Below are positions 18,301 through 38,255 of a stretch of 64,000 nt of DNA, piece by piece (position 1 is the first letter of the stretch; each line of letters opens with the position of its first letter). The stretch lies in NCBI GenBank assembly GCA_964017185.1, contig OZ024872.1, positions 60,691,817-60,755,816 of the forward strand. Direction: 5' to 3'. A model generated the notes under the pieces. It was given only the letters and a program-made list of their open reading frames with translations. It did not search any database and was not told the DNA's origin. This stretch comes from Rugalucina vietnamica (Eukaryota; Mollusca; Bivalvia; Lucinida; Lucinidae). Made by a program: the position numbers and the translations under genes.

Positions 18301-18664
18301 GTGAAAATCTTCCTTTCGCGAAAGGAACGTTCCTTTCGCTATATAGCTATACCGAAAACAAACCTGCAATCTGTTCTTCTGTGAGCTGGTCTGCCTGGAA
18401 AAAGAAGATAACTGTCAGAGAGAAATCCAACTGTAATCGTTCTGGATGAATTTGATGTTAGATTTTATGCTTAGGCCCAGAATGTGTGGCGGTTCCCGTT
18501 GTTTTTCAGAATCTGAGGGAATCATCAATTGCTCATCAACATGCAAGAAAATCAAACAAATGATCAATTTCAAAAAAATATTAATGTACAATAAATACAC
18601 AATGTATTTTTCATCGAATAATGCAAAATTCTAGCACTGATGGTAATTAAAAAGGTCTTACCAT
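12356..18664 (-). CDS. CALM: Calmodulin, five coding exons, complete
   Basis: Ubiquitous cytosolic and nuclear calcium sensor; it binds four Ca2+ and then activates kinases, phosphatases, channels and other targets. Coding exons on the minus strand are 18662-18664 (ATG only), 18364-18394, 15660-15803, 12751-12993 and 12356-12384. They total 3+31+144+243+29 = 450 nt, i.e. 149 codes plus stop counted as 149 residues with Met1, with every phase matching. The product starts [17 protein letters not shown] and ends [12 protein letters not shown], the invertebrate form. Four EF-hands are intact, with loops beginning [36 protein letters not shown] and [12 protein letters not shown]. Isolating the ATG in its own exon is typical of animal calmodulin genes. 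Introns carry several MITEs. The donor after exon 3 is GTGTGT, weaker than the others. A TTTATT at about 11889 is one possible poly(A) signal (AATAAA on the minus strand). Identity is certain; UTR limits are not. Confidence 0.97.
12751..12993 (-). CDS. CALM: Calmodulin exon 4 (EF-hands 2-4)
   Basis: The acceptor is TTGTTTTTAG and the donor GTAAGG. The exon encodes the rest of EF-hand 2, the central helix ([11 protein letters not shown]), EF-hand 3 and most of EF-hand 4. It is 243 nt with no internal stop. Confidence 0.97.
13437..15040 (+). mobile_element. Pearl-like element in calmodulin intron 3, interrupted by a hAT MITE
   Basis: The left end is AAGAGGACCAATGATCC, then ACGCTCACCTGAGA; the right end is GGCTCAGGTGAGC. 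Two core units lie at about 14220 and 14681. A 544-bp hAT-type MITE with an 8-bp duplication sits near its left end (13502-14045), so the hAT insertion is the younger event. Confidence 0.85.
13502..14045. mobile_element. hAT-type MITE with perfect 8-bp target duplication
   Basis: Terminal repeats TAGTGATGGGC and GCCCAACACTA, with sub-terminal ATCGAT-rich repeats in both arms. The flanks are TTGACTAC at 13494-13501 and again at 14046-14053. TAGTG(A/T)TGGGC ends with 8-bp duplications are diagnostic of hAT. There is no transposase ORF, so it was moved in trans. Confidence 0.93.
15439..15631 (+). mobile_element. MITE, GCCGCATCGTGAGAAAACC family, copy 3, in a calmodulin intron
   Basis: Ends TGAGCCGCATCATGAGAAAA and TTTTCTCATGATGTGGCTCA are inverted repeats. 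The internal hairpin is partly deleted. It lies 29 bases downstream of calmodulin exon 3, in the intron. Confidence 0.82.
15660..15803 (-). CDS. CALM: Calmodulin exon 3 (EF-hand 1 and start of EF-hand 2)
   Basis: The acceptor is TATGTTACAG. The exon encodes [15 protein letters not shown] through EVDADG, covering the first EF-hand, the linker and the first loop residues of EF-hand 2. The donor is GTGTGT, a weak but usable match. An 88-bp near-perfect palindrome ends 35 bases upstream of the exon in the transcript direction. Confidence 0.96.
15838..15925. repeat. 88-bp near-perfect palindrome in calmodulin intron 2
   Basis: Arms of about 43 bases run from AAAAGTTCATGAAAATTGC to a two-base centre and back through GCAATTTTTATGAACTTTT, with few mismatches. 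It ends 35 bases before the acceptor of exon 3 in the transcript direction, so the pre-mRNA could fold a long hairpin next to the branch-point region. It may be the remains of a foldback element. Confidence 0.9.
16062..16095. repeat. (TCTA)n microsatellite in calmodulin intron 2
   Basis: Two runs of ATCT/TCTA separated by one irregular unit; an ATCT run also occurs at 17388-17404. Confidence 0.85.
16156..16369. mobile_element. Small hAT-like MITE in calmodulin intron 2
   Basis: Ends CAGGGTTCGACACT and AGTGTCAAACCCTG are near-perfect inverted repeats. The interior repeats GGACTCCT / AGGAGTCC-like motifs. Flanks TGCATGCA and TGCATATG agree at six of eight bases, consistent with an old 8-bp duplication. 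Confidence 0.75.
17183..17521. mobile_element. MITE, TGCACCAGTCATTTGT family, copy a
   Basis: Inverted ends TGCACCAGTCATTTGTGAC and TAACTGGTGCA; flanks TA on both sides. It shares its interior with 47434-47765. It lies in calmodulin intron 2. Confidence 0.85.
17671..18353. mobile_element. 683-bp MITE inserted at the calmodulin intron 2 splice donor
   Basis: Inverted ends of about 50 bp begin (G)GGTATAGCTA and contain repeated CGAAAGGAAG / CTTCCTTTCG. The target duplication is GAAAACAAAC at 17661-17670 and 18354-18363, ten bases, perfect. The right copy is exactly the first ten bases of intron 2 (GTTTGTTTTC on the minus strand). A 9-11 bp duplication is usual for Mutator-like elements, but the TIR was not matched to a named family. 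There is no ORF. Confidence 0.92.
18364..18394 (-). CDS. CALM: Calmodulin exon 2 ([10 protein letters not shown])
   Basis: The acceptor is a good pyrimidine tract ending TTTTTCCAG. Thirty-one coding bases give [10 protein letters not shown] plus the first base of the next Glu codon. The donor is GTTTGT. The first ten intron bases are one copy of the target duplication of a MITE, so the transposon abuts this splice site. The exon starts in phase 0, so it can accept either the ATG exon at 18662 or the upstream exon at 27588. Confidence 0.95.
18662..18664 (-). CDS. CALM: Calmodulin exon 1, start codon only
   Basis: The coding part is just ATG, preceded by CAAAATCCAGA and followed directly by the donor GTAAGA at 18661. 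The intron is phase 0. The 5'UTR lies upstream at higher coordinates and its start is not defined. This is the canonical first exon. Confidence 0.9.
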
Positions 18665-19060
18665 TCTGGATTTTGATGATGCTGATTATGATACACTCTA
18701 ACGCCTTTGTTTACACTGTCTCATCAAGCAAATTCTACCGCGTGAAGTCGATTTTAACAAGAGTTGTAATGCGGTAATTAAATTCATTTGTTTTCTATCT
18801 GACGGCAATATATAAACAGTGTGTATCATATCAGCGCTGTGGATTAGTCTTTTATCCATTTGCTAGAAATAATAAGCATGTATGGATGGAACTATATTAT
18901 ATCGCATTGATTTGAGAGTTAGAAGGCTTTCACCGGTAACTCCCGCGCGGACAACCGACCGACTACCGATGTTACAATCATTTTGATTGGTCATTTTTCC
19001 TCTGCAATGCGACAACAGCTTCAGCAGTCGCAGGATGAGTTATTGAACGCGTAGTTAAAG
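18665..19060 (-). promoter_or_regulatory. CALM: Candidate canonical calmodulin promoter and 5'UTR
   Basis: Upstream of the ATG exon the minus strand carries TTTATATATT at about 18807-18816, a plausible TATA-like box about 150 bases before the ATG. A GACCAATCA CCAAT-type motif lies near 18985, beside a CpG-rich stretch near 18940-18965. The 54-bp satellite begins about 350 bases further upstream. The start site is not determined. Confidence 0.4.
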
Positions 19061-19234
19061 TGGTCAATTAGCCGGCAAGATCAAAGGAAAATGCAGTGAC
19101 AAATAGGTAGCAATTGTTTATAGCGACTGACGCGTCCTGATCATAAGTCCACATCTTTGCTTCAGTTGTGGGCCGATTATAAACATGAAGGCTACACTGA
19201 GAGCAAAAAGAAATGCACAAAATTTAAGTGCGTT

Positions 19235-19320
19235 TTCTAGCGCCTCTTGGTTATGACACCTGATTTCTACGCCTGCCACCTGGGTTCGAGGCCAGCTCTG
19301 ACAGCTCTGGCTGGATGTTT
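19235..19320 (+). mobile_element. SINE-like head remnant next to the satellite
   Basis: AGCGCCTCTTGGTTATGACA and CTGGGTTCGAGGCC give a weak A box and a good B box. No SINE body follows. Confidence 0.4.
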
Positions 19321-19389
19321 TATTTACAGGTCTATATTTCAGATGTGTGAAGCTGGCTGTTAGTTGTTAGATGTTAATTCAACTGTTAA

Positions 19390-36612: not shown

Positions 36613-37437
36613 TGGGCTTCAACCATCGCTACAAAAACTACAAGTGTTTTTTGCAATTGGAGGAGGACGTGGTGCCAACAGCCGGGGTGGTGTATCTCTA
36701 TCACTGTCACCAGATTCTCCTTTTTTGATGTCTTCGGTTCATTTTTTTCTTCCTAGGAGGCATTCTAGAAGTAACTATACACTAATGTTTTAAGATGTTG
36801 CTTGTTGCTGTCTACAATGAAAGTGGCAGTAGAAAAAGAAAGCCAAGTACAGCTATGTTTTCACAACTCGCGCAAACTCGTAGACAACTCGTGGTATGTC
36901 GTACGGATGTCGTGGATACTCGTACTGATCTCGTAGGAATGTCGTAGCAACTCGCGATAACTCGCCGTCAATGTCGTGGTATATCGTAGGAACTCGTAGC
37001 AACTCGTAGGTAACTCGCCGAGTTTGAGATGACGCCGAGAACGCGCGACAACCCACGACATTAGTACGAGTTCTGTACGAGTTCTGTACGATATGCTACG
37101 AGATCAGTCCGAGTTATGCTCCGCCCACTTTTAGACGGCGAGTTGCTACGAGAATTTTAAACCGTTTAAAATTCTCGTAGCCTTTCCACGACAAGCTACG
37201 AGTTATGCCGAGTTGAGAAGAGTTGTGTACGACAACCGAAGACATATGCCGAGTTCTCTACGAGATGCTACGAGTTCACCAAAAAAGTGGGCGGAGCTTA
37301 ACTCGTAGCTCAAACTCGTGAGTGTGTGACAGGGCCTTTACTGAAAGAAGTTTCTCGTCAGAACATTGGTAGAGTACGATTCGCTAAAATACATAATGAA
37401 GTATGGTGGTTATAATAATATTTGTTGGGTTTGGTTA

Positions 37438-37643
37438 TTGTTTAAAGTCTCGTTAAACAATTTTTCATCCATGTTGTGACGGAACCACCACTTACTGTGT
37501 TTTTAACCAGTACTAAAGGGAGCTTTAGGAAGTATTACTTTAGGGAGTCTAGGACACTAGACGACTTTCGATTTTGGGCTCGAACCCATGAACTCTAGGT
37601 TACTACGGAAATCTGACACTCTACCACTGAGCCACAGCGCTCC
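37438..37643 (-). mobile_element. tRNA-derived SINE
   Basis: On the minus strand GGAGCGCTGTGGCTCAGTGG (A box region) and GGTTCGAGCCC (B box) are followed by a body with CTCCCTAAAG and a tail CTGACA/ACGTTAA-like end. It is the same family as the copy at 40371. Confidence 0.8.
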
Positions 37644-38206
37644 TTGTTAGAAGCAGTTTCAACGTATTTCATCGTTATTTTACATTAGAGGGATCAAAAA
37701 TGATTTTCAATTCATTAATATTCGCAAGATCCCGAGGGACTATCTAAAACCGATGGCGAAGCTCGAGGTTTTAACACTTCCTTCAGGACCTTGCGAATGT
37801 CAATGAATGACGAAAGACGAAATTATGTTTGATATTTTCAAAAAATCCTACAAAAACTAAGAAATTGATAAGACATTAGTTTTTTTTTATACCATACAGC
37901 CTCATAATATTTTGTAAGGTTCAAAACTCATGCTCGATCCGGGCTCTGGTCAATTAATATTAAATCAGCACGTGTTCTGCCCGCGCCTGGTAACAAGCAT
38001 AAATAAAAGTCGTTATCAGCACGTGCGCACGCGATTTCCCTGATTATAACAATAATTTCGTTTTCCTTAACATGACTGTTAATACGGTGCGATAATGGTA
38101 TTTATGAAATAATAAGCATTATTGTAGTAATGCATTTTGTTGCCCATTTAATACAAAATGCTTTGCAGTACCAAAAGCATGATAAAGTAATAAATGAATG
38201 CATTAC

Positions 38207-38255
38207 CTGTAAGTCCCAGCTGATTCCTTGTGTCCAGTCGAACTGCCAATTTCAT
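38207..38255 (-). CDS. Predicted upstream first coding exon A
   Basis: ATG at 38255 opens MKLAVRLDTRNQLGLT and one further base, then the donor GTAATG. The frame upstream of the ATG is closed by a TGA 39 bases before it, so this is the first in-frame Met. Joined to exon B the spanning codon is GGG (Gly). Exons A+B+C give a 61-residue leader whose last Met equals calmodulin Met1, predicting a product of about 209 residues. Upstream sequence on the minus strand has an inverted CCAAT motif and a CACGTG box, consistent with a promoter. The transcript is inferred, not seen. Confidence 0.55.

Follow-up and report, generated by a model that had tools for sequence, protein, structure and literature searches.

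Candidate alternative 5' exons of a calmodulin gene in the bivalve Rugalucina vietnamica, and a repeat tail resembling a first exon

Calmodulin (CaM) is among the most conserved of all animal proteins. Two human CALM2 entries, E7EMB3 and H0Y7A7, are presumably N-terminally longer forms, predicted to arise from another first exon. In the cited passages of proteomics papers these entries are given as CALM2 or calmodulin only, with neither a length nor an N-terminus (PMC7343173, PMC3787961, PMC6692627). The abalone genes CaM A-D, in the passages that describe them, are composed of five exons with the start codon alone in exon 1 and encode 149 residues with four EF hands (PMC6171432), and the same passages cite a sea squirt CaM gene with an ATG-only first coding exon. 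The stretch of DNA analysed here (the window; 64,000 nucleotides of contig OZ024872.1, referred to below as contig 4) contains on its minus strand a complete CaM gene at 18664-12356, and lies in the genome of the lucinid bivalve Rugalucina vietnamica. Upstream of this gene are two putative exons, B and C, that are tentatively read as alternative 5' exons of the gene, and a third putative exon, A, that is the tail of a dispersed repeat.

The gene in the window agrees with abalone CaM A-D in exon number, lone start codon, 149-residue product and four EF hands (PMC6171432), the last identified as four stretches of Pfam EF-hand_1. The passages on the abalone genes mention no upstream or alternative start-codon exon (PMC6171432), in contrast to B and C here. 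Like the proposed extended form, Arabidopsis CML4 and CML5 have an EF-hand core behind an N-terminal segment, but in the passages cited these are separate plant genes with a signal anchor and not an alternative exon of a canonical CaM gene (PMC4915527). A search of open-licence PMC for an extended, alternatively spliced or alternatively promoted calmodulin returned no paper matching all terms, and no extended CaM was found by title among the matches listed.

The calmodulin gene and putative exons A, B and C

The CaM start codon stands by itself ahead of the first coding intron, which is the canonical layout of animal CaM genes, and apparently the same ATG-only first exon is present in a CaM gene on contig 12 (L026). 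Between 27587 and 12300 six acceptors score at least 4 bits, and that of exon 2 is the strongest of them. Many genome copies exist of a short repeat (best 40 of 389 candidates) that lies within 18363-17661, starting no more than about a dozen bases into CaM intron 2 and adjoining the weak donor of exon 2. The sequence GTTTGTTTTC, which contains this donor, is found again at about 17670-17661, an arrangement that looks like a target-site duplication preserving the donor.

The original prediction described three exons upstream of this gene, and their coordinates, GT/AG sites, phases (1, 0 and 0) and open frame are all as it gave them (Table 1). An in-frame stop is present upstream of the ATG of A, and C ends in the same ATG/GTAAGA as CaM exon 1. 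The three exons form one open frame in phase with CaM exon 2, and translation of the joined exons gives 61 residues followed by CaM residues 2-149, for a total of 209. The predicted extension of about 60 residues before an unchanged CaM is thus borne out as a frame, but its start codon is located in a dispersed repeat. The prediction also took CaM exon 2 to be the next exon on this strand, which holds only if exon 1 is skipped, as exon 1 sits between C and exon 2. Apart from the final codon of C, B and C contain no in-frame ATG; this last codon re-supplies one at the would-be junction with exon 2.

Table 1. Features of the window discussed in the text, with positions in the window.
Feature	Position	Strand	Description
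Dispersed repeat that reaches from upstream into exon A	38242..40500	-	Bounds within the compared 37000-40500
Putative exon A	38207..38255	-	MKLAVRLDTRNQLGLT+G; donor 3.8 bits; first 14 nt, including the ATG, within the repeat tail
Putative exon B	34257..34327	-	Acceptor 5.1 bits, donor 7.0 bits; frame CFRSDGEAIVDNGTQKAQENTTK; single copy
Putative exon C	27588..27650	-	Acceptor 6.9 bits, donor 4.4 bits; frame GTEDINEYNRDSKEGTPPGEM; ends ATG/GTAAGA; single copy
54-bp tandem array	19426..26318	.	6.9 kb; inside the intron that C-to-exon 2 splicing would need
CaM exon 1 start codon	18662..18664	-	ATG/GTAAGA, intron directly after the ATG; read by sequence
CaM exon 2	18364..18394	-	Acceptor 9.7 bits; donor weak, 1.6 bits
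CaM exon 3	15660..15803	-	Sequence, translation
CaM exon 4	12751..12993	-	Top-ranked internal-exon candidate in 264 kb
CaM exon 5, coding part with TAA stop	12356..12384	-	Sequence, translation

Exon-likeness of B and C and the repeat at exon A

Generic animal matrices served to score the splice sites, and codon use was scored as log-odds from 5,003 codons in 20 kinase-domain stretches of the same genome. Internal-exon candidates were taken from both strands of 264 kb as non-overlapping stretches of 30-300 bases with an open frame and with acceptor and donor each of at least 3 bits. These thresholds were chosen with B and C in view, and the scan overlooks real exons because CaM exons 2 and 3 miss them. 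Among the 51 candidates CaM exon 4 ranked 1st, C 3rd and B 7th. The 2nd-ranked candidate is a plus-strand stretch at 43153-43340 (27.3 bits) without an assigned gene. Chance expectation was modelled by 40 order-2 Markov simulations of the region, in which candidates scoring at least as high as C had a mean of 0.025, compared with three in the actual sequence (CaM exon 4, C and the plus-strand candidate at 43153), and those scoring at least as high as B had a mean of 0.725, compared with seven. In none of the 40 simulations did two candidates in phase with each other end in an in-frame ATG; the real region has one such pair, B-C. The real region holds two in-phase pairs; the other, between 88023 and 84774, is probably repeat-derived because the peptide of its first member recurs in related form near 160 kb.

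The codon score of C is 9.0 bits, a value reached by 0.0021 of the stop-free background, while B scores 3.7 bits (0.037) and A 1.06 bits (0.15). Joined, the 183 nt of A-B-C score 13.8 bits (0.013 of the background and 0.016 of open shuffles), of which the share of A is 1.1 bits. Open shuffles of each exon's own letters are the stricter control, and the fractions scoring as high were 0.0057 for C, 0.20 for B and 0.47 for A, so that only C stands out, B is not significant and A is not beyond chance. On splice-site and codon score together, the B-C pair exceeds chance.

Copy-number queries were run against the 1.09-Gb genome. B with its flanks (201 bases) and C with its flanks (251 bases) each match only themselves. 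The intron controls were few, two stretches of 201 bases, and both are repeats: 30500-30700 has at least 39 other matches (best 40 of 3,964 candidates) and 36000-36200 has 28 other places matching over 85-201 bases. B and C are likely to be real exons, as judged from their sequence.

Exon A differs from B and C in this respect. When the window was compared with two loci on contig 11, identity was about 94% over 40500-39087 and about 98% over 38527-38242, with some 560 bases between these segments not common; the two contig 11 loci have about 1.4 kb in common with each other at 98.6%. All three sequences diverge directly after ATGAAATTGGCNGT. A query of 301 bases around A gave 40 matches (best 40 of 42 candidates), composed of A itself, the two contig 11 loci, which are 98% identical over window 38450-38242, and 37 places that match the core of the repeat only. 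This core is 36-52 bases long and has at least 37 copies. Eight core copies were inspected by eye: the same terminus could be recognised in seven, the eighth (L068) has a variant of it, and the DNA beyond the terminus differs at each of the eight. Because the terminus is common to copies at other sites, the ATG of A, its first 14 bases and its supposed promoter correspond to the end of a dispersed repeat, and the 61-residue extension is therefore without a supported start. Among 41 upstream candidates in phase for B, A takes 14th place when scored as an initial exon and 4th place as an internal one, and it is not distinguishable as a start exon from chance and from repeats. Hydrophobic moments computed for a targeting helix in A gave nothing striking. 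The extended isoform that was originally proposed to start in A, and the second promoter placed upstream of it, are both left unsupported by these comparisons, as the repeat includes the start codon, the codons directly after it and the upstream DNA. Judged by its copies, putative exon A is a repeat tail.

Alternative 5' exons and competing explanations

We tentatively favour B and C as alternative 5' exons of this CaM gene, driven by a putative upstream promoter. The observed features behind this reading are the layout, the frame, the splice-site scores, the coding-like codon use of C and the single copy of B and C. A transcript would begin at the upstream promoter, run through B and C, skip CaM exon 1 and splice C to the strong acceptor of exon 2, and the final ATG of C would substitute for that of exon 1 to restore the CaM N-terminus. 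We infer the transcription, the C-to-exon 2 junction and the promoter. Exon 1 contributes nothing but the start codon to the CaM frame, and splicing from an upstream exon directly to exon 2 would therefore yield CaM only if the upstream part of the transcript included an in-frame ATG. The last codon of C is this required ATG, and B and C are for this reason better explained as a leader of normal CaM than as a coding extension, although the coding-like codon use of C points to translation from a start further upstream that is not seen here. The suggestion of an alternative 5' leader with the normal Met, also part of the original prediction, is the best remaining reading for B and C once exon A is left out as a repeat tail. 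The product would most likely be ordinary CaM under different control, or an extended form given an unseen upstream exon with an in-frame ATG.

Several observations weigh against the reading of B and C as alternative 5' exons. No credible first exon was found among the 41 phase-compatible upstream candidates, which comprise only A and weak ones. An out-of-frame ATG in strong context is present in B (16 codons), and a second in C (50 codons) opens a frame that overlaps the CaM start. The codon use of B is not above that of its own open shuffles. By protein, no relative of A-B-C was found elsewhere in the genome, the only matches at E up to 10 being the three exons themselves. The possibility that C is a duplicate of CaM exon 1 was rejected, as the two have the stretch ATGGTAAGA in common without wider similarity and only short words match. 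Single-copy flanks are also no fixed mark of an exon here, since a 231-base query around CaM exon 2 is unique in the genome as far as the exon end, with a repeat straight after the donor. The intron between C and exon 2 would be 9.2 kb, and its tandem array carries 118 AATAAA on the minus (sense) strand and 0 on the plus strand, which could end transcripts early given working downstream elements. A 6.2-bit acceptor at 19196, 532 bases ahead of the CaM ATG and the sole one of at least 3 bits between the array and this ATG, would allow C to be spliced to exon 1 with the ATG of exon 1 retained, and C would then not have to supply a substitute ATG. A phase-0 terminal-exon candidate is also present at 17218 in CaM intron 2 (67 codons, score 5.2, acceptor 6.1 bits).

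This last candidate could belong to a different gene, and only somewhat less probable than the favoured reading is that B and C are exons of another same-strand gene or a non-coding RNA, with their fit to CaM in frame and ATG a coincidence. Such a transcript would end within the intron or array, or its further exons were missed. The exon-like B-C pair would be expected of such a gene, the AATAAA motifs of the array are available downstream, and past the donor of C the frame continues for 23 codons before reaching a stop at 27518, followed by AATAAA or ATTAAA at 27363. Read-through of this donor, however, scores -0.9, and the two phase-0 terminal candidates (acceptor at least 3 bits) between C and CaM exon 1 score -1.6 and -3.0. 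Use of the 17218 candidate requires skipping the stronger acceptor of exon 2, and its score is low per codon. The 61 residues have no Pfam match, and against the PDB they gave three weak matches, the best (E 0.017) to Pizza6 proteins, which were taken as chance. A final in-frame ATG would arise by chance at an estimated rate of roughly 1 in 64. It is unlikely that B and C are intergenic DNA in which open frames and sites resembling splice sites arose by chance, noticed through looking for exons that could join CaM. The generic site matrices, the thresholds fixed with B and C in view that miss CaM exons 2 and 3, the ordinary codon use of B for its composition and the further high-ranking candidates without an assigned gene would all be consistent with chance, but the simulation counts, the codon use of C and the single-copy stretches within repeat-rich introns argue against it.

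A 61-residue polar N-terminal extension of CaM from A, B and C, under a promoter about 20 kb upstream, is improbable. The frame is open through all three exons into CaM and the joined codon score is above most of the background and of the open shuffles, but the ATG of A, its MKLAV codons and its upstream bases form the end of a repeat that has further copies elsewhere, and A by itself is no better than chance and adds little to the joined score. Slightly less probable still is that insertion of the dispersed repeat gave a promoter and the start codon (the ATG and MKLAV of A) ahead of older B and C, creating a lineage-specific CaM with the 61-residue polar extension; if true, a repeat-made extended CaM would arise from the same locus as ordinary CaM. 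It is very improbable that A-B-C or B-C encodes the N-terminus of a two-pore potassium channel whose gene lies about 61 kb further downstream, with CaM nested in an intron of that gene. The channel is on the same strand and its first visible exon lies downstream, but the best acceptor in the 140 bases before the transmembrane motif and ahead of the Met scores 0.2 bits, an in-frame stop precedes the channel's own Met by 5 codons, and the strong acceptor of CaM and an opposite-strand EF-hand gene intervene. This assignment was rejected on the missing usable acceptor and the in-frame stop.

Neighbourhood and implications

CaM-like genes are strongly expanded on contig 4, with dozens of separate matches (e.g. 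L027, L028, L030-L032, L035 and L039), several of which are at least 90% identical to CaM over an exon. Whether the CaM copies of contigs 4 and 12 might be processed copies carrying the leader was considered, but each of them has an acceptor immediately ahead of residue 2, which gives them the look of genes and makes them uninformative on A-C. Just downstream of CaM on the same strand, 5749-9582 encodes an uninterrupted 1278-residue non-LTR retrotransposon frame with endonuclease, reverse transcriptase and zf-RVT domains. On the plus strand, 48514-49521 encodes a transposase-like frame of 336 residues that has DDE_3 and helix-turn-helix domains, and a 431-residue open frame on the minus strand at 45532-46824 has no Pfam match at E 0.001, its C-terminal end resembling a frame at 43123-43461. 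No Rfam family at gathering scores and no tRNA gene was found in the window. Outside the window are plus-strand EF-hand exons (L014:4317-6808), tail to tail with CaM, and the minus-strand two-pore-type potassium channel (L011:4107-4595).

The locus is an example of a first exon being mimicked by the tail of a repeat. A general rule may also follow from its layout: where the start codon is alone in the first exon, an upstream promoter whose transcript skips that exon would need a replacement ATG exactly at an exon end, a pattern that is searchable in other genomes. If the reading of B and C as alternative 5' exons is true, a CaM gene with a second N-terminus or a second promoter would represent a new point of control.

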